From: Trematomus loennbergii | Lineage: Eukaryota > Chordata > Actinopteri > Perciformes > Nototheniidae | DNA length: 64,000 nt | Direction: 5' to 3' | NCBI GenBank assembly: GCA_012861695.1 | Contig: JAAOOA010000049.1 | Coordinates: forward strand, 434,001-498,000 | Part shown: positions 10,851 through 64,000 of the stretch, in pieces | How positions within the stretch are numbered: position 1 is the stretch's first letter | How the letters are laid out: every line of letters begins with the position of its first letter | Translations under genes and position numbers: made by a program | Notes under the pieces: generated by a model | What the model saw: the letters and a program-made list of their open reading frames with translations, nothing else | Told to the model about the DNA's origin: nothing | The model's database searches: none

Positions 10851-11067
10851 TAAAAGGCCCGATCTCTGTAGATAAATAAAGAACTACGACAGATGTGTAA
10901 TGTTTAATGCAGCCAAACCATTCATTACAATGCATTCATGTGATGACTTTCAAAGAGTAAAGCAAGCACTGCTGAAAAAGTATGATTTGATCTTTTACTA
11001 AACTTTTTTTTTCCATATGGAATGCAGTTGGAGGTCAACCAATCACAGAGCTTGAGGCAAAGCGGAA

Positions 11068-16035: not shown

Positions 16036-16722
16036 GATTTAAAGTAGGGCCGTGATGGAATGGCATACTTCGGCTCCAGCGTGTTAACTAACCTCCTAAA
16101 TCCATCGTTGTCGACCACAGATGCACCTTGTTATTTCCTCAGCTCTTGGACTGTTAGGGGAAGTGGGGCTCCAAATACTTCTTTCAGAGTCAGTTGGCCC
16201 GGCTTAAGCTTTTCCTCACAGTAGGTTGTTGTGGTCGGAGCTTTTCTGGGTGGCGATTTGACAAATGACTTCTCATGTTCGATGTATTTCCCGAATTGTA
16301 GTTGACCGTTGCCCGGCAGGATTTGCAAATAGTTTTGCGTTTGTCAGTTTGCTTTTCACCATTGTCATTTATTGAAACGGGAAAACCGAAATGCTGCCAC
16401 ACATCAGCTTTAAAAGTCAATGGAGCATCCTCAATTTCACATTCTTTATTTAGTTGTTGGTCAGCACATTCGTCTACTACTTCGTTCGCCATTTTCTCGT
16501 GGGTCTGAGAGCACGCTTGCTTGCACGCAAAGGATGATGGGAGTCTGTCTTCTTGACTATATTATGGCGCCCTCTGCTGTTCAAACAAAAACAATACAGT
16601 TTTTGCCAATAAGGTGAGGAATGAACCATGTAATATCGCGGTAGATTTTGTCAGTCTCACGACGGTATTGAGTCGTTTGTTTACCGAGGTACCGCGATAT
16701 TCGGTATGTCGTTACATCCCTA
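16036..16722 (-). pseudogene. hAT transposase N-terminus with BED zinc finger, and element end
   Basis: The start codon is at 16492. The first 100 residues contain a BED finger: a tryptophan in DVWQHFGF, then CKSC, then HLSNRH supply the Cys2-His2 ligands. BED fingers bind the transposon ends. Downstream frames continue with LTLKEVFGAPLP and LVNTLEPKYAIPSR, after which the L2 insertion begins. There are at least two frameshifts. The right element end reads, on the minus strand, TAGGGATGTAACG from 16722 inward, a typical hAT terminal repeat. It abuts the SAM-like pseudogene, so the hAT inserted into that gene. Confidence 0.82.
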
Positions 16723-22022: not shown

Positions 22023-22044
22023 TTAAAGAGGACATATTCTGCTC

Positions 22045-23889
22045 ATTTTCAGGTGTATATCAGTATGTAGTGTCTCTACTTTAAAGAGTCCTCTCCTGCT
22101 GATGCTCAGGTGTATATCAGTATGTAGTGTCTCTACTTTAAAGAGTCCTCTCCTGCTGATGTTCAGGTGTATATCAGTATGTAGTGTCTCTACTTTAAAG
22201 AGTCCTCTCCTGCTGATGCTCAGGTGTATATCAGTATGTAGTGTCTCTACTTTAAAGAGTCCTCTCCTGCTGATGTTCAGGTGTATATCAGTATGTAGTG
22301 TCTCTACTTTAAAGAGTCCCCTCCTGCTGATGTTCAGGTGTATATCAGTATGTAGTGTCTCTACTTTAAAGAGTCCTCTCCTGCTGATGTTCAGGTGTAT
22401 ATCAGTATGTAGTGTCTCTACTTTAAAGAGTCCTCTCCTGCTGATGTTCAGGTGTATATCAGTATGTAGTGTCTCTACTTTAAAGAGTCCTCTCCTGCTG
22501 ATGTTCAGGTGTATATCAGTATGTAGTGTCTCTACTTTAAAGAGTCCTCTCCTGCTGATGTTCAGGTGTATATCAGTATGTAGTGTCTCTAATTTAAAGA
22601 GTCCTCTCCTGCTGATGTTCAGGTGTATATCAGTATGTAGTGTCTCTACTTTAAAGAGTCCTCTCCTGCTGATGTTCAGGTGTATATCAGTATGTAATGT
22701 CTCTACTTTAAAGAGTCCTCTCCTGCTGATGTTCAGGTGTATATCAGTATGTAATGTCTCTACTTTAAAGAGTCCTCTCCTGCTGATGTTCAGGTGTATA
22801 TCAGTATGTAGTGTCTCTAATTTAAAGAGTCCTCTCCTGCTGATGTTCAGGTGTATATCAGTATGTAGTGTCTCTACTTTAAAGAGTCCTCTCCTGCTGA
22901 TGCTCAGGTGTATATCAGTATGTAATGTCTCTACTTTAAAGAGTCCTCTCCTGCTGATGTTTAGGTGTATATCAGTATGTAGTGTCTCTACTTTAAAGAG
23001 TCCTCTCCTGCTGATGTTCATGTGTATATCAGTATGTAGTGTCTCTACTTTAAAGAGTCCTCTCCTGCTGATGTTCAGGTGTATATCAGTATGTAGTGTC
23101 TCTACTTTAAAGAGTCCTCTCCTGCTGATGTTCAGGTGTATATCAGTATGTAGTGTCTCTACTTTAAAGAGTCCTCTCTGCTGATGCTCAGGTGTATATC
23201 AGTATGTAATGTCTCTACTTTAAAGAGTCCTCTCCTGCTGATGTTTAGGTGTATATCAGTATGTAGTGTCTCTACTTTAAAGAGTCCTCTCCTGCTGATG
23301 TTCAGGTGTATATCAGTATGTAGTGTCTCTACTTTAAAGAGTCCTCTCCTGCTGATGTTCAGGTGTATATCAGTATGTAGTGTCTCTACTTTAAAGAGTC
23401 CTCTCCTGCTGATGTTCAGGTGTATATCAGTATGTAGTGTCTCTACTTTAAAGAGTCCTCTCCTGCTGATGTTAGGTGTATATCAGTATGTAGTGTCTCT
23501 ACTTTAAAGAGTCCTCTCCTGCTGATGTTCAGGTGTATATCAGTATGTAGTGTCTCTACTTTAAAGAGTCCTCTCCTGCTGATGTTCAGGTGTATATCAG
23601 TATGTATGTCTCTACTTTAAAGAGTCCTCTCCTGCTGATGTTCAGGTGTATATCAGTATGTAGTGTCTCTACTTTAAAGAGTCCTCTCCTGCTGATGTTC
23701 AGGTGTATATCAGTATGTAGTGTCTCTACTTTAAAGAGTCCTCTCCTGCTGATGCTCAGGTGTATATCAGTATGTAGTGTATCTACTTTAAAGAGTCCTC
23801 TCCTGCTGATGTTCAGGTGTATATCAGTATGTAGTGTCTCTACTTTAAAGAGTCCTCTCCTGCTGATGTTCAGGTGTATATCAGTATCT
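22045..23889. repeat. 57-bp minisatellite, about 32 tandem copies
   Basis: The unit runs TTCAGGTGTATATCAGTATG then TAGTGTCTCTACTTTAAAGA then GTCCTCTCCTGCTGATG. Because 57 is a multiple of three and neither strand has an in-frame stop in one frame, long apparent proteins appear on both strands: a 19-residue unit beginning MFRCISVCS on plus and NISRRGLFK on minus. Variants such as GTAATG for GTAGTG, CTAATTT for CTACTTT and TGCTCAGG for TGTTCAGG recur in order, so blocks of several units duplicated together. Single-base losses near 23178, 23473 and 23606 break the plus frame. The first unit matches the MITE start, so the array arose inside the MITE. Confidence 0.95.
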
Positions 23890-29348: not shown

Positions 29349-29723
29349 TTACACGCTGTTCAGATGCCTCATAAGGGCTGTGCGCGTGTCTTGCCCCCCA
29401 GCCTCGGCAATGGCTGGCCCATCAAGCTGGGTCGCCGGTAAGGCAGTCCATTCGTCCCTGTACTCATCATCATTACTTTCACAAAGGTTATGTAATATGC
29501 AACATGCTGCCACCTGGATTTTGATCTTGTCCATCTTGCAGTCGTTTCTTTTCATCAAGCACCGCCACCTGCCCTTCAGTCTGCCAAAAGCGTTCTCCAC
29601 CACCACTCGTGCTCGGCTTGTTTTGTTATTGTACGCAAGTTGCTCAGGCTGCATTAACTCAGTTACAAAGCTGTATAACATGAGCACAAACAGCACAACT
29701 TCAGTCGACTCCATCTCCATCAT
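29349..29723 (-). pseudogene. Harbinger A transposase, C-terminal part
   Basis: The minus strand frame includes YNNKTSRARVVVENAFGRLK, where the glutamate is the last residue of the DDE triad, then GRWRCLMKRND and VAACCILHNLCE. These are the standard C-terminal motifs of PIF/Harbinger (HARBI1-like) transposases. The two aspartates and the N-terminal two thirds are missing, so this copy cannot make an active enzyme. It faces the SANT-like gene. Confidence 0.85.
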
Positions 29724-30074
29724 GTCTGAGGTCGGAAGGTAAACAACAGACGCCTAATGTACAGCGAGTGGGTGGGCGTCGCAGTATACGCGGGAAGTTT
29801 TTTTCTTCTTCTTCTCTTGTTTTGTAGCGGATTGCAAACAACTTTAAGGTGCATACCGCCACCTACTGTACTCGCCGTGAAGTGGTTTGTGGCCTGCCAG
29901 TAAAGCCAAAGCAGAAGAAGAAGAAGTGACGTCAGCGGCTCATTTGCGTAATCTTCCCTCAGGGAAAAGTACTCCGGTGTGAACGCGATCTGTACTAAGT
30001 GCCCTGGGGTAAAAAGCGCCGGGGCTCTGAGTGCCGGAACTAAGTACAGGAAAGTACTTGGTGTGAACGGGGCT

Positions 30075-42605: not shown

Positions 42606-45600
42606 AGAAGAGGGCACTGGTGAGCCGCACTACACTTAATGTTAGTCCCTCACGTTGTCTCCCAAATGTCACTCTTTCTTCGTCTTCTGTGGTTCTCAGG
42701 CATCCTGTTTTGGTAGACTCTGGCTCAGATGCCAGTTTTATAGACCTTGAGTTGGCTAAGAAGCTGAACCTTGAGACTTTCCCTCTTCCAAGACCAATGG
42801 AAGCAAGTGCCTTGGATGGCCGTCTTCTCTGTAGGGTAACTCACCACACCCAACCTCTTCAGCTAAGTTTCCTGGACGGTCACACTGAGCTTCTCGTCTT
42901 TCATGTTTTTCGGTCCCCCGAACACCCAATCATTTTGGGGTACCCCTGGCTTACCCTACATAACCCCCACATAGACTGGTCCACTGGCAAGATTATTGCT
43001 TGGTGTAAGGGATGTTTAAGTACCTGTTTTCCGTCCAAATGTTCCATGGCTGCCCCTCCAGCTGTCCCTGTAATTCAAGACATTTCAGATCCTGATTTCC
43101 CTGACATTTCCAAGGTCCCTCAGTGTTACCATGACCTTAAGGAGGTTTTTAACAAGGCCAGAGCCACCTCGCTGCCCCCTCATCGGGTGTACGATTGTGC
43201 TATAGACTTGTTACCAGGCTCTTCACCACCCAGGGGTCGTCTTTATTCCCTATCTGCTCCAGAGACACGGGCGATGAAGGAATATGTGGAGTCTTCACTA
43301 GCCACTGGATTAATTCGACCCTCTTCCTCTCCCGCTGGAGCCGGATTTTTCTTTGTGGCAAAGAAGGACAAGTCACTTCGCCCCTGCATTGACTATCGTG
43401 GTTTGAACGACATTACCATCAAGAACAGGTACCCCCTTCCTCTTATGTCATCAGCTTTCGACCAGTTACAAGGTGCTAAGATCTTTACCAAGTTAGATCT
43501 TAGAAATGCTTATCATCTGGTGAGAATAAGGGAAGGGGATGAATGGAAAACTGCCTTTAACACCCCAAGTGGGCATTACGAGTACTCGTAATGCCCTTTG
43601 GCCTCACAAATGCCCCAGCTGTGTTTCAGACTTTGATCAATGATGTACTTCGAGACATGCTTAACATCTTTGTTTTCGTGTACCTGGATGATATCCTCAT
43701 CTTCTCCCCTGACGAAACGACCCACAGAGATCATGTACGCCGCGTCCTACAGCGCCTCCTGGACTACCACCTCTTTGTCAAGGCCGAGAAGTGTGAGTTT
43801 GATGTTTCCACTGTTTCATTTTTGGGCTTTATTGTGTCAGTGGGCAATGTTTTGATGGATCCGGCTAAGGTTAATGATGTCTCTGAATGGCCTGTCCCTG
43901 TAAACCGCAAACAAGTGCAGCGGTTTTTAGGGTTCGCCAACTTCTATAGGCGATTCATAAGAAACTTTAGCACTGTTGCTGCTCCATTGCATGTACTAAC
44001 CTCCCCAAACACAAGGTTTCAGTGGACCTCTCAGTCGGACCAGGCCTTCCAGAGGCTCAAGAAAGCCTTCACCACAGCCCCTATACTGATCCTCCCGGAC
44101 CCACATCTGCAGTTTATGGTAGAGGTGGACGCTTCAGACGTGGGGGTTGGTGCTGTGCTCTCCCAGCGCTCCAGAGAGGACAACAAGATTCACCCATGTG
44201 CTTTCCTCTCCCGGAAGCTTTCCCCTGCTGAGAGGAATTACGATGTGGGGAATCGGGAGCTGTTGGCTGTTAAGGTGGCACTGGAGGAGTGGCGTCACTG
44301 GTTAGAGGGAGCTGAAGTGCCATTTCTTGTGTGGACCGATCACAAGAACCTGGAGTACCTGCGCACAGCGAAGAGACTCAACCCTCGTCAAGCCAGGTGG
44401 GCTCTCTTTTTTAATCGGTTCAACTTTTCACTGTCTTATCGTCCTGGTTCTAAAAACACTAAGCCTGATGCTCTCTCTCGTCTCTTTGATACGGGCTCTG
44501 ACCCTTCTCCCCCCACTACCATCCTGCCTCCCTCATGTATGGTGGGTGCTGTTACCTGGGCTATTGAGGAGAAGGTCAGAGAAGCAAATGTTGGTAACCC
44601 AGGCCCGAGTGGTTGCCCTCAGAACAGGTTGTTTGTGCCCTCTCCTCTTCGCTCTCAGGTCATCCACTGGGCTCATGCGTCCTCTCTCTCCTGCCATCCG
44701 GGGATCAAACGGACCATGTTTGTGGTCAAGCAACGCTTCTGGTGGCCCAAGATGGAGAGGGAGGTGGGGGAGTATGTTGCTGCCTGCCCGGTGTGTGCTC
44801 GGAACAAGGTTTCTCGTCGGCCTTCCCCTGGTCTCCTACGTCCCCTTCCTGTACCTACTCGCCCTTGGTCGGACGTTTCTCTGGACTTTGTTACAGGTCT
44901 TCCCATGTCCCAAGGTAACACAACCATTTTGACCATTGTCGACAGATTCTCAAAGTTGGTGCACTTTGTTCCTCTGCCCAAGTTACCCTCTGCCAAGGAA
45001 ACGGCGGAGGTTGTCCTGTCCAATGTTTTCCGGTTACATGGCTTCCCTAAAGATGTTGTGTCGGATCGGGGTCCCCAGTTCGTCTCCAAGTTTTGGAAGG
45101 AGTTCTGTGCTCTCCTGGGTGCCACCGTTAGCCTCTCCTCCGGCCATCATCCTCAGTCCAACGGACAGACCGAGCGGCTCAACCAGGAGTTAGAGACCGG
45201 CCTGCGTTGTCTCGTCTCTCAGAACCCCACTACTTGGAGTAAGAATCTCATCTGGGTTGAGTATGCGCACAACACATTGCCTTGCTCTTCTACTGGTCTT
45301 TCCCCATTTCAGTGTGCTTATGGCTACCAACCGCCCCTGTTTCCGTCCCTGGAGGGAGAGGTCAGGGTTCCTTCTGCCTTGGCACTGATTCGGAGGTGCC
45401 GTCGCATCTGGAATGGGGCTAGACAAGTGCTGCTTAGGACATCTGCTCGGTACAAGAGGGCAGCAGACCGCAGACGGATCCCTGCTCCCACCTATCGTGT
45501 CGGCCAGAGAGTATGGCTCTCCACTCGGGACCTTCCTCTTCGAGTCGAGTCCCGTAAGTTGGCTCCTCGCTTTGTCGGTCCCTTCCCTGTCTCAAAGATT

Positions 45601-45948
45601 ATTAATCCTGTTGCTGTGAGACTCAAGCTTCCCAGGTCCATGAGGTCGCACCCAACTTTCCATGTGGCTCGGATCAAGCCGGTCAAAGAGAGTCCTCTGG
45701 TCCCTGCCTCCAGACCCCCACCGCCCCCCGGTTCATCGATGGAGGGCCAGTTTATTCTGTCAAGCGGCTCTTGGCAGTTCGCCGGCGGGGTCGTGGACGC
45801 CAGTATCTGGTGGATTGGGAGGGCTATGGTCCTGAGGAGAGGGAATGGGTATCTTCAAAGAACATTGTCGACCCAGACCTCATCCGGGATTTCCAAAGGC
45901 ATCATCCAGACGAGCCTGGACCGTCCGGTGCCGGTCGTTGAGGGGGGG
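42551..45948 (+). pseudogene. Gypsy pol with two single-base frameshifts
   Basis: The pol frame is open from 42551, in the -1 frame relative to gag. Domains in order: aspartic protease ([12 protein letters not shown] at about 42710), reverse transcriptase ([18 protein letters not shown], then [13 protein letters not shown] and YLDD at about 43681), RNase H ([14 protein letters not shown] and [11 protein letters not shown]), integrase ([13 protein letters not shown] and CPVCARNK for zinc; [14 protein letters not shown] and a downstream glutamate for catalysis), and a chromodomain ([17 protein letters not shown]). One base is missing near 43587, before the MPFG motif, and one change occurs in a C-run near 45715-45730, which puts the chromodomain in another frame with its stop near 45940. 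Both could be sequencing errors or true damage. Confidence 0.93.
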
Positions 45949-45952
45949 GTAC

Positions 45953-46391
45953 TGTCACATCCTGGCCCTGGCTGATCGCCTCACTCCCTCACCTGTGTGT
46001 TTTTCCTTCCCTGTTAATCACCTGCCTGGCCTCAATGAGCCTCAGCTGCCCCTAATCATTACTCATCACCTGTGTATTTAGTCTGTGCTGTTTCCTTGGT
46101 CAGTGCCAGTTCGTCTTGTCTGTATAGCAGCAAGTGCTCCATGTTACTCTCCTGACGTAAGCTATTGTTCTAGCTGCTTAGCATTTTTACCAACCTAGTT
46201 GGTTGTTTTTTGTTGTTGCTTCTTTAGTAGTTTTCCGCCAACTTGTTGGTTGTTTTTCGTTCCTTCCAGTCTTTACATTTTTGGACCTTTGCCTGTATTT
46301 GCCTTTTGGATTAAACGCCTGACTAAAGACCTTTTTGCCTGGTTGTGCTCTTGAGTCCTATTTTTGCTCGTGCCCGTACTTGGGCTTGATA
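45953..46391 (+). repeat. 3' LTR of the Gypsy element
   Basis: 439 bp, nearly identical to the 5' LTR. It is preceded by an AGGGGGGGGTAC purine tract that would prime plus-strand synthesis. Confidence 0.97.
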
Positions 46392-48741: not shown

Positions 48742-49240
48742 TTAAAGTGGACCTATCATGCTATATTTGAATAATATATTGTAGGGCCATACCTATATAA
48801 GGTATATTTATACGTTTTCTTTTTCAAAATACCAAACAGATCATGCATTTTAGCCATGCCTCATTTCGCTCTATTTTGCTCTCCTCCACCCTGTCTTTGC
48901 ATGCGCTGCAGCTGACCACGCCCCCCTGCAAAGGAGGGGGCCGAGTTACGAGCGTCATGTTACCATGCTGTTACCATGCCACGGCAACCTCTCATTCCCC
49001 TGATAGGTGGAGAGTTGGCCATATAGGCGGAGCTCCTCCGTCCTGACGTCAGAGAAATGTTCAAATCTGGATCAGTTTTTATCAGATCCGTTGCAGCCCC
49101 TTTTTTAGAGATTTGGGTATGGAGGAAAATAGAGAGGGTTGTGTTTTCTGACACTTGGTGAGTTCCCTGACACACCGGGGACACATATTCATGTATAAAA
49201 GACGCACAAAAGTGCATTTTGCATGATAGGTCCCCTTTAA
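48742..49240. mobile_element. 499-bp TTAA-flanked MITE
   Basis: TTAA at 48742-48745 and 49237-49240 flank ends AGTGGACCTATCATGC and GCATGATAGGTCCCCT, which are inverted repeats. The left half (TATTGTAGGGCCATACCTAT and ACCAAACAGATCATGCATTT) recurs at 61957-62140. TTAA duplication suggests a piggyBac- or Kolobok-mobilised element. No transposase. Confidence 0.85.
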
Positions 49241-60249: not shown

Positions 60250-60689
60250 TGCCCAGAGTTCCCAAAAATGACGCCTTTGCATCCATGCATCCATTTTCAA
60301 CCATGTATCCAGAGTCGTGCCGCAGAGGAAGCAGTTCCAGCAGAGGGCCCCAAACGTCCCTTTCCCTGTCCACATCGACCAGCTCTGACCAGGGTTCCAA
60401 GGCGCTCCCAGGCCAGCGTGGAAATATGATCCTTCCACCTGGTCCTGGGTCTGCCCCTCTGTCTCCTCCCAGCTGGTCGTGCCTGGAACTCCTCCCAGTG
60501 AAGGTGACCAGGTGGAATCTTTACTAGGTTCCCGAACCACCTCAGCTGGCTCCTCTCAACATGAAGGAGCAGCGGTTCTACTCCGAGTCCCTCCCGGATG
60601 ACTCAACTTCTCAGCCGTTTCTGTAACGAAGATCGATAGATTGAGAGCTTTGCCTTCTGGCTCTCTTCCTCACAACGGTGCGGTAAAGT
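60250..60689 (-). pseudogene. LINE reverse transcriptase C-terminus, part 2
   Basis: The minus strand contains GRPRTRW-like and LAWERLG-like motifs, shifted by substitutions, plus HPGGTRSRTAAPS-like sequence, which mark a common fish LINE C-terminus. The frame is degraded. At 60682-60689 it is interrupted by the long-TIR element, and the same LINE resumes at 63696. Confidence 0.6.
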
Positions 60690-61621
60690 CAACCCGGTAT
60701 CACGGCAAGACGTGAACATGTGACAATTTACCATGCTGGGAGACGTGAAGATGTCACGATTTCGTCCCTTCAAACGTGACAGTTACACGGTATTTTTAAC
60801 ATGGCCCAACCAGTGGAGAAATACCCGGAAGTGCCAAGCAAATGCTACCCCGACGGTCGGTTGTTATTGTCAATATTAATATAATAATGATTTATTTTTT
60901 AATAGTCACACTCGATTTCGCCGATTTTCTTGTTGCCCCAGCTGGTCGACACCTCTTTTAGCAGAAACAAAGGCTACATTAATGTATTAAATCGATGTTA
61001 ATCCATATGTGTGGATGTGGAATTAACGGATGTGACGTTGTGCGATGGCGTTACCAGGCAACAGCTTCGGTTCATGTTAATTTACAAACTCTTCAACTCG
61101 AACCGTAGTTATATTTAAAAACATTTTAGAAGGCCTCACGAAATACTTTAATGTAAATTTAAATTTAAATGTGAAGGAATGTGTGTATAACAAAATACAT
61201 CCGTCAAAAACAATACTGGAAACAGACGTAGGCAAAATCCTCAGCTCGGTGATTCAATGGTTCAATGCACGTTGGGAAATGGTGTTTATGCGATGTGAAA
61301 TCCGAAAACATTTTTAAAAAATAAAATAATACTTTATTCCGAGTGTGCTTGCTTTTCTCTTTGAAAGTCAAAGACTTCTAGACAAACAGGAAGAACTGCC
61401 GCCAAAACTGAAAACGTGACGTGGATCATAAATATATCAGCAATTAAACAACATCTTACATTTCTTTTCACACAATACGTCTCCTTGCAGTATCAATACT
61501 AATTCGGCTGACTTTTATATTTGATCCAATTGGTAGATAGACTGTATTTACACCATAACGGTGCACAGCTAGGGTTAAAAGGGACACCTAGTGGTTAAAG
61601 CACGTTATTGAATTTTATTAT
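60690..61621. repeat. Left inverted arm of long-TIR element 2
   Basis: It matches the right arm with few substitutions. Examples are TGTCACGATTTCGTCCC, GGTCGACACC, CCTGGTAACG-type and TCGAACCGTAGTTATATTTA blocks. It ends with AGCACGTTATTGAATTTTAT, next to the IGHV V exon. Confidence 0.92.
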
Positions 61622-61630
61622 TATTATTAA

Positions 61631-61845
61631 CTAACAGAATAAGAGACCTGACAGGTGATGGTCAGACCTGGCTGCACAGTCACAGAGGCTGGCAGTGTCA
61701 ACTGTTCACACTTCACACCTGTACAAATAAAAAAAAAATTATATGACAGATTATCCTGTTAAACAGCAATATAATAAGTGTTGACTCGTGCAGAGAGAGA
61801 CTCACTTCCAGCTGCCAGCAGCAGCAGCAGAGCTACAGAGAACAT
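61631..61845 (-). pseudogene. IGHV: Truncated immunoglobulin heavy-chain V segment (teleost)
   Basis: Leader exon 61845-61806 encodes MFSVALLLLLAAG, a signal peptide, and ends GGAA|GTGAGT. After an 87-bp intron ending TTGTACAG, the V exon (61718 down) continues in phase 1 with VKCEQLTLPASVTVQPG and then LTITCQVSYSVS, the framework-1 region with the conserved cysteine. Phase 1 splicing between leader and V exon is the rule for Ig V genes. The sequence stops at the left arm of the mobile element, so CDR1 to framework 3 and the recombination signal are missing. Compared with the teleost pattern I know (PGQRLTITC), two residues before LTITC seem to be lost. It cannot be expressed as an antibody. 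Confidence 0.82.
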
Positions 61846-61868
61846 GATGATGATGATGATGATGATGA
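61846..61868. repeat. (TGA)n tract upstream of the IGHV leader
   Basis: A short trinucleotide run directly 5' of the leader start codon on the minus strand. No octamer ATTTGCAT was found in the roughly 110 bp between it and the MITE fragment. Confidence 0.85.
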
Positions 61869-61956
61869 CTCTGAGAAGACGTGAGCTCCTGATCCCCTTT
61901 AATCTCCACTGACAATATCCATTACTAAACAAAACAGCACACCTGAAATGTATATT

Positions 61957-62180
61957 TAAAGGAAACCTATCATGCTATATTTAAATGATATATTGTAGGG
62001 CCATACCTATATAAGGTATATTTATACGTTTCTGTTTTCAAAATACCAAACAGATCATGCATTTTAGCCATGCCTCATTTCGCTCTATGTGCTGTTTGCT
62101 GTCTACGGGTCTGATTCTGCTGACCACGCCCCCCGCAGGAGAGGGGAGACGTGCTCTGATCAGCTGCTGGGCTGTCAGAA
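61957..62180. mobile_element. Truncated copy of the TTAA MITE at 48742
   Basis: AGGAAACCTATCATGCTATA follows TTAA, and TATTGTAGGGCCATACCTAT and CAGATCATGCATTTTAGCCA match 48742-48880. The right inverted end is not found, so the copy is partial. Confidence 0.75.
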
Positions 62181-62454
62181 GAGGGGGAGAAAAAGAGATC
62201 TCCGTCTTCCGTGTTTTATTATATAGAGTCGTTATTCATTTGTTTTAAAGCTCAATAAATAACAAAGAAGACCTTTGACCGGCACTTTTCTAATTTTGTC
62301 CGGAAGATTTAAACTTTAACGGACATCTTGACCGGCGAAAGTAACTGAAACTGAAACTCTGCTGCACAGTCCCCTCGTTCCTTGGAAGAGGCGGAGAGGT
62401 GGGTGTTTGTCATCTGCTGGTGGACTAACCGGAGAGAATTACAGTGCTTTTTGT

Positions 62455-62625
62455 AAGTCGCTTTTATCCAAAGCGACTTACAATTACCAATTACAGGGAC
62501 ATTCTCCCTGGAGTAACTAAGGACTAAGTGCCTTACTCAAGGGCACACTAGTGGTGGTGTTCCTGGCGGGATTTGAACTCACAACCTTGCGATCTTCAGC
62601 CCACCTCCACTATAGACAGTGTTAC
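62455..62625 (-). mobile_element. tRNA-derived SINE with L2-like tail (second copy)
   Basis: On the minus strand GGTTGTGAGTTCAAATCC is a B-box-like motif, followed by sequence to the tail GTAAGTCGCTTTGGATAAAA at 62481-62459, the same tail as in the L2 LINE at 34068 and in the SINE at 56453. It lies inside long-TIR element 2. Confidence 0.75.
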
Positions 62626-62754
62626 ATTGCTATTATTATCCTTAAAATATATGTAAAACAAAACCACTTATGATCTTTTTATTTGAGTGGTTTACTAATG
62701 ACAGTTAATTCTGTTTTTGCTATTGATGGTTTCATTTTTGTGAAAAATTATAAA

Positions 62755-63695
62755 ATAATAAAATTCAATAACGTGCTTTAACCAGTAGGCGTCCCTTTCT
62801 ATCAGCTGTGCACCGTTATGGTGTAAATACAGCCTATCTACCAATTGGATCAAATATAAAAGTCAGCCGAATTAGTGTTGATACTGCAAGGAGACGTATT
62901 GTGTCACGTTTTCAGTTTTGGCGGCAGTTCTTCCTGTTTGTCTAGAAGTCTTCTCATCAGGGCTCTATAAATAGAGAACTACGGCAGATATGTCATATTT
63001 AATGCAGCCGAACCGTGTATTACAATGCCGTTATGTGATGACTTCCAAAGAGAAAAGCAAGCACACTCGGAATAAAGTATTATTATTTTTTTTTTTTTTA
63101 ATTCGGCATTAATTTAATGGCATTAAACCATTGAATCACCGAGCTGAGGATTTTGCCTACGTCTGTTTCCAGTATTGTTTTTGACGGATGTATTTTGTTA
63201 TACACACATTCCTTCACATTTAAATTTTAATTTACATTAAAGTATTTCGTGAGGCCTTCTAAAATATTTTTAAATATAACTACGGTTCGAGTTGAAGAGT
63301 TTGTAAATTAACATGAACCGAAGCTGTTGCCTGGTAACGCAATCGCACAACGTCACATCCGTTAATTCCACATCCACACATATGGATTAACATCGATTTA
63401 ATACATTAATGTAGCCTTTGTTTCTGCTAAAAGAGGTGTCGACCAGCTGGGGCAACAAGAAAATCGGCGAAATCGAGTGTGACTATTAAAAAATAAATCA
63501 TTATATTAATATTGACAATAATAACCGACCGTCAGGGTAGCATTTGCTTGGCATTTCCGGGTATTTCTCCACTGGTTGGGCCATGTTAACAATACCGTGT
63601 AACTGTCACTTTTGAAGGGACGAAATCGTGACATCTTCACGTCTCCCAGCATGGTAGATCGTCACATGTTCACGTCTTGCCGTGATACCGGGTTG
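62755..63695. repeat. Right inverted arm of long-TIR element 2
   Basis: Inverse of 60690-61621 with about 90 extra bases (about 62955-63045), including AGAACTACGGCAGATATGTC. That extra piece also occurs in long-TIR element 1 at about 10880-10965, so the left arm has lost it. Confidence 0.92.
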
Positions 63696-64000
63696 GGTAA
63701 AGTTCCCGCTTCTCCGACCTAACTCACGCTCCATTGTCCCCGTCATTCGAGAACAACTACTACTTCACTTGGGGTAATTCCCTACTCATTATTATCTATT
63801 TAGGCTTATATCTCTTTTGTTTTTTCCCTAAAGTACCAACTGGAATATACTTACTCTACGCTTTGTAAGAGCTTCAACGCTCAATCCGACAGCACTAGAG
63901 CGAGGAGGACCACACTGTGTACCGAGATGAAAGTGACCTGGTCACTGACCATCAACATTCAGTGTCTGCCCATCCGATCTGCTCCCACAAATGGTCTTTT
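63696..64000 (-). pseudogene. LINE reverse transcriptase, part 1 (runs off the window)
   Basis: The minus strand contains a frame with FSNDGDNGA-like sequence, which resembles the FTSDG motif upstream of the C-terminal part at 60250-60689. The same LINE is thus split by long-TIR element 2. It is degraded, and the window ends inside or near it. Confidence 0.45.

Follow-up and report, generated by a model that had tools for sequence, protein, structure and literature searches.

The window analyzed here, a 64,000-nucleotide stretch of Trematomus loennbergii DNA (contig C49:434001-498000), contains at 60682-63703, target-site duplications included, a 3,006-bp element whose long inverted arms enclose part of an immunoglobulin V gene (IGHV) (Table 1). 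The element is bordered by an exact 8-bp target-site duplication, GGTAAAGT, and terminates in CAACCCGG at one end and CCGGGTTG at the other. Its 933-bp and 941-bp arms are complementary over long blocks (94 to 100%) with indels between the blocks, about 87 nt of the right arm being missing from the left arm and about 50 nt of the left arm from the right. These values confirmed the original prediction of a 3.0-kb unit with 0.94-kb inverted arms and an exact 8-bp duplication. Elsewhere in the window, positions 10872-10987 are 83% like 62967-63084 of the right arm, which the left arm partly lacks, and may be an older relative of the arm or a shared host piece.

The IGHV piece lies on the minus strand and comprises an ATG at 61845 with a 40-nt leader exon, an 87-nt phase 1 intron (GT donor at 61805, AG acceptor at 61719), and 88 nt of the V exon, with the translation SVKCEQLTLPASVTVQPG-LTITCQVSYSVS. 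The window copy retains the ATG, the leader, and the splice sites, and it lacks two framework 1 codons (QR) compared with native genes. The leader exon, intron, and first V-exon part had been predicted with correct splice sites and phase, and this was borne out; the prediction had to be amended for an insertion nested at about 61961-62611 and for the loss of 270 nt of flank. The 270-nt deletion, located at 61914/61915 by comparison with a second copy on contig C2606, takes out both upstream TATGCAA motifs. The nested insertion lies inside the captured DNA, its start resembles window positions 48742-48939, and it is later than the capture. A functional IGHV gene has a complete V exon and a 3' RSS; here the V exon is cut at CDR1, and no CACAGTG-type RSS occurs within the window. 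The short V peptide gave no match in Pfam and only weak antibody matches in PDB (best E value, 0.2).

The element interrupts a repeat, presumably LINE-like. After removal of the element and one duplication, the joined flanks aligned across the join with a different repeat copy at L027:710-826 (E value, 7e-12; 70% over 131 columns), so a single repeat copy was interrupted by the element. Of the predicted insertion into a LINE that resumes on the other side, the resumption was thereby upheld; the repeat is presumably a LINE, and Pfam gave no match for its 101-aa frame. The window also contains a Ty3-type retrotransposon whose 804-aa open frame (43561-45975) has Pfam domains for reverse transcriptase, RNase H, and integrase; a minisatellite at 22023-23507, in which long open frames run in either direction; and transposase-like frames at 29349-29753 and 16190-16561 (DDE_Tnp_4 and BED zinc finger; Pfam).

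Table 1. Features of the element and of the interrupted repeat, in window coordinates
Feature	Position	Strand	Basis
Interrupted repeat, left part (presumably LINE-like)	60300..60681	.	joined flanks align to L027
Target-site duplication, left copy, GGTAAAGT	60682..60689	.	exact repeat
Left inverted arm, 933 bp	60690..61622	.	arm complementarity; terminus found family-wide
AT-rich filler between arm and V exon	61623..61630	.	junction comparison
IGHV V exon, first 88 nt, cut at CDR1	61631..61718	-
IGHV leader intron, 87 nt, GT-AG, phase 1	61719..61805	-
IGHV leader exon with ATG	61806..61845	-
IGHV 5' flank; 270 nt present in the C2606 copy are missing at 61914/61915	61846..61960	-
Nested insertion, edges approximate; not in the C2606 copy or native V loci	61961..62611	.
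Further IGHV 5' flank, up to native TTTTTGT/CCTTTT (cut between)	62612..62741	-
AT-rich filler between IGHV flank and right arm; in the joint matched at 610 places	62742..62754	.
Right inverted arm, 941 bp	62755..63695	.	arm complementarity
Target-site duplication, right copy, GGTAAAGT	63696..63703	.	exact repeat
Interrupted repeat, right part, edge approximate	63704..63960	.	joined flanks align to L027

Native IGHV genes and limits of the captured piece

We searched the 1.21-Gb assembly (3,566 contigs) with the V piece 61640-61900 and obtained 46 matches from the 40 scored of 187 first-look candidates, most of them on contigs C82 and C171. As anticipated by the original prediction, the IGHV piece has paralogues elsewhere, namely, full-length relatives with an RSS that cluster on contigs other than that of the window. 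In all six native loci read, the V exon is followed by an RSS with the nonamer ACAAAAACC and a spacer of 23 (22 in L006). Proper splice sites together with a clean read-through are found only in L005. A frameshift late in the V exon disrupts L003 and L004, the ATG is gone from L006, which also contains stops, the AG acceptor is gone from L007, and L008 carries a stop. The protein typed from L005 has 996 relatives, and the best 120 of these include annotated Ig heavy variable genes of several teleosts, the best identity among them being 94% (Pagothenia borchgrevinki and Dissostichus eleginoides). The V piece of the chimera derives from IGHV.

Both ends of the capture fall within native V-unit sequence. 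Homology between native loci extends beyond them on either side (about 1161-2656 in the locus coordinates of L003, versus 1492-2303 captured), and the native V loci have no arms. The cut points are sharp (native CTG/CTAACAG in the V exon and TTTTTGT/CCTTTT upstream, the slash marking the cut), with two of the six native loci diverging just before the V-exon cut. Interior positions 9-855 of the C2606 chimera are colinear with five of the six native loci and correspond to two pieces in the sixth. From the cut points and the limits of the filler, IGHV DNA reaches from arm to arm in the window copy, except for the 8 and 13 bp of AT-rich filler and leaving the nested insertion aside.

The chimera occupies a second insertion site

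The chimera on C2606 is 2,821 bp long and is flanked on both sides by GTGGCGAC. It has both junctions as in the window and carries neither the nested insertion nor the 5' deletion. The same capture junctions combined with another duplication indicate that the chimera moved after capture. A 25-nt pattern for the V/arm junction (≤3 mismatches), which V-carrying copies with other cut points could escape, matched with 0 mismatches on C49, C1694, and C2606 and with 3 mismatches on C535 and C2350, and the reversed-pattern control gave 1 match. The C1694 copy is an allele of the window locus, with 99.6% identity over the element (2 mismatches plus 9 gap positions, as expected of alleles) and 99.5 to 99.9% in the flanks. 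The C535 and C2350 copies are 98% alike, and both are truncated on the left side. We considered them as a third insertion and rejected this, since their right flank of about 545 bp is shared with C2606 at about 95%; their V exon is joined to a different arm position (∼573), which we read as a later rearrangement. With C1694 being an allele and C535 and C2350 being copies of the C2606 insertion, two independent insertion sites remain, at which the chimera has the same capture junctions and different duplications. The original prediction had named a further copy of arms plus IGHV with another 8-bp duplication as the mark of a mobile chimera, and the C2606 copy is such a case.

In the C2606 copy, the bases after the ATG are missing, so that a TAG follows the ATG, and the leader of the C535 copy is shortened. 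Compared with the native genes read, the C2606 copy has a much longer trinucleotide run at the leader start codon (L039:4839-5181), which has overrun the leader start. The V exon ends at CDR1 in all V-carrying copies, and consequently no RSS follows it. Because the V exon is incomplete and has no RSS and the window copy is also without the upstream TATGCAA motifs, the captured V piece is most likely a passenger, judging from its sequence, and we saw no sign of function for this truncated, RSS-less piece.

Termini, members, and classification of the transposon family

A 31-nt terminal pattern (≤3 mismatches) matched at 2,283 places (1149 + 1134), and its control matched at none. Among nine complete members with both ends compared, seven have an exact 8-bp duplication (those of the window, C2606, C128, L023, L014, C116, and L063); the exceptions are a C399 member with inverted flanks and L076, which is off by one base. 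In the C399 member (L021/L035; C399:21713448-21716205), one flank repeats the other in inverted orientation (GTTGCACT / AGTGCAAC), reflecting either a rearrangement or an assembly fold. Outside the window locus, IGHV sequence was present in the stretch examined at 10 of 28 TIR-seeded loci, C2606 being one of the 10 and some of the 28 being two ends or two alleles of one element. Arms without IGHV had been expected elsewhere in the genome; the arms are indeed dispersed, but none of the IGHV-free copies could be shown to be older than the capture. L014, the only complete member without IGHV that was compared, looks like the product of a deletion and was rejected as a pre-capture element; the family members examined included no pre-capture form.

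We found no transposase in the family members examined. A CGGBP1-like ORF in the C116 member was rejected as the family transposase, since it lies inside what appears by eye to be a distinct element nested in this member and bounded by inverted ends of its own. This member (L038/L049; C116:20706971 on) measures 3,816 bp with the apparent nested element, and the ORF matches a Centropristis protein at 78% over 72% of the query. The members on C475, C2, and C127, chosen because their interiors might be long, had no second arm within the stretch read and, on inspection, no ORF that we took for a transposase. A 5.3-kb member has an interior made of IGHV flank only, with no ORF of at least 100 aa in the 3.5 kb read, and the 1.2-kb interiors of two 3.0-kb-class members are likewise flank-only. 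Scans of viral contigs with the TIR and the IGHV flank gave 0 matches.

Plant-type MULEs make duplications of 9 to 11 bp, versus 8 bp here, and Helitrons have neither inverted arms nor target duplications, both of which are present in this family. hAT elements make 8-bp target duplications. The duplication length observed here fits both the hAT superfamily and the P element. An 8-bp duplication is given for the zebrafish P element Pdre2 in the passages of PMC10983969 that describe it; the Pdre2 termini (CATACCTGTCAAC) differ from those of the present family.

IGHV upstream DNA in flank-only copies

A 37-nt pattern for the joint between flank, filler, and arm (≤3 mismatches) matched at 610 places (300 + 310), and its control matched at none. 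Since this pattern consists of filler and arm except for its first two bases, the adjoining sequence had to be inspected. In the first 30 of the 610 joints, which are all mismatch-free and not a random sample and of which L080 and L081 overlap, IGHV flank was directly at the joint in every case (C2606 interior up to position 868). The flank at the joint extends over 105 to 243 bp (243 bp in most, 149 bp in L074, and 105 bp in L080). Beside it, the piece 532-640 is inverted in 28 of the 30, although only to 606 in L076; L074 is without this inverted piece, and the L080 joint is a second joint, 331 bp from that of L081. These flank-only (F) copies contain a rearranged flank, in which a 15-bp overlap is present twice. 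By contrast, the flank is colinear in one piece in 14 of 16 V genes in full and in the other 2 in part, and it is also colinear in the C2606 chimera.

We favor, without claiming proof, descent of the F subfamily from the same capture as the chimeras; the V-exon part would then have been lost and the inner 109-bp piece inverted. It seems probable, although some way from certain, that the capture of one antibody V gene gave rise to a subfamily of several hundred copies, so that IGHV upstream DNA is strewn over the genome. If so, ectopic pairing or conversion could take place between these copies and the IgH locus, and the copies could keep a record of an older IGHV sequence.

Direction and order of the transfer

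The dispersed arms, the native V genes, and the C2606 chimera support the original prediction that a transposon captured part of an antigen-receptor gene and moved it. The element is, very probably, a Pack-TIR, namely, a nonautonomous long-arm DNA transposon with 8-bp duplications and a captured IGHV piece of about 800 bp, which takes in 5' flank, leader exon, intron, and the first part of the V exon. A single capture may have occurred inside the element by template switching during repair or replication, and a transposase would later have moved the chimera.

In a tree of 36 F copies, 3 chimeras, and 14 V genes, midpoint-rooted with no outgroup, the transposon copies split from the V genes with a support of 0.88 to 0.89, and the chimeras were sister to F. 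Mean differences were 0.017 (F-F), 0.029 (chimera-F), 0.031 (V-V), 0.046 (chimera-V), and 0.056 (F-V). Net chimera-V divergence, calculated with six V genes, was 0.0134 for the V part (0.0036 to 0.0239) and 0.0057 for the flank (−0.0072 to 0.0186); the intervals overlap, and gene conversion may homogenize V genes. Of 408 sites in the V part, 3 were fixed in the chimeras and absent from the six V genes, as were 2 of 287 flank sites, on the basis of three chimera rows, two of them alleles. Neither the net divergence nor the fixed sites suggest that the flank is older than the V part. Transfer from IgH to the transposon in one event is favored, with support rather than proof from these alignments, because the flank is colinear in the V genes and in the C2606 chimera but rearranged in F and because its net divergence does not indicate a greater age than that of the V part. 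What counts against one event is that no member was shown to predate the capture and that the transposon-V differences (0.046 to 0.056) exceed the V-V differences.

The latter two points would also fit an order in which the transposon came first: the flank segment (C2606 interior 532-868) would be transposon sequence that entered an ancestral IGHV unit, and the V exon would have been gained later, when a break within this segment of an element was repaired from an IgH unit by homology. The presence of the segment at 610 joints and the division of transposon and V sequences into two groups, in an unrooted sense, agree with this order as well. We nevertheless consider it unlikely, given that the native V loci are without arms, that the segment is colinear in them and rearranged with a doubled overlap in the flank-only copies, and that the net divergence of the flank is not above that of the V part, with overlapping intervals. 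Two captures, of the flank first and of the V exon later from another V gene, would account for the flank-only copies being many and the V-carrying ones few; this scenario is more doubtful still, as colinearity of the chimera with native loci spans both parts and divergence is no greater in the flank than in the V part. A local inverted duplication or an assembly artifact at an IGHV gene, without transposition, has almost nothing to commend it beyond the presence of the locus on two contigs (C49 and C1694), as these differ only in an allele-like manner, no further V match falls on C49 in the 40 candidates scored out of 187, the arms are dispersed rather than local duplications confined to the IgH locus, the interrupted repeat resumes across the join, and the independent C2606 site with its other duplication contradicts it.

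Comparison with known systems

Capture in one event by a Pack-TIR, the reading that we prefer, has parallels in several systems. Helitrons, as set out above, differ from the present element in arms and target duplication. The fish texim genes associated with Helitrons resemble our case in that a transposon apparently captured a host gene and spread it, according to the passages of PMC4021074 on these genes. Plant Pack-MULEs and Pack-TYPE elements, in the sections of PMC13317346 devoted to them, likewise have gene fragments between inverted arms that were amplified, whereas here the host is an animal and the duplications are of 8 bp. Turmoil-1 of Caenorhabditis elegans is an animal TIR transposon with transduplicated gene fragments, which, as described in the relevant part of PMC2572040, lie inside the inverted repeats and not, as here, between the arms.

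Pack-TIRs have been described in animals, vertebrates included, with 370 in 100 genomes and four multicopy cases (Tan et al. 2021; PMC8277862, main text). The models put forward there involve gap filling or replication-fork switching and then transposition, and a multicopy example has three copies. The present element shares with Pack-TIRs matching inverted termini, a target duplication, and a host-DNA interior with an identifiable parent, and also the optional feature of multiple copies with distinct duplications (GGTAAAGT and GTGGCGAC). At the breakpoints, where microhomology is frequent in Pack-TIRs and not required, both joints contain AT-rich filler. Differences from the cases in that main text, from which the word "immunoglobulin" is absent, are the antigen-receptor donor and the 610 donor-flank joints. 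Thus, this kind of element is already described in animals, and it is the donor and the copy number that are unusual. The original prediction had cited plant Pack-MULEs as the known precedent and no vertebrate Ig V case; the first part overlooked the animal Pack-TIRs (PMC8277862), and the second stands, since no earlier Ig V gene in a transposon was found in the literature searched (among the matches listed, at the level of titles and abstract openings). No match combined "transduplication" with "immunoglobulin."

An adaptive-immunity gene segment is here the cargo of a transposon in a vertebrate, and its donor, junctions, and two insertions can be read in one assembly. In such genomes, V-gene counts and IGHV-flank probes can match transposon copies. 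As multicopy Pack-TIRs are rare (the four cases in 100 animal genomes in the main text of PMC8277862), a family with hundreds of joints makes a good test bed for TIR capture and later amplification.
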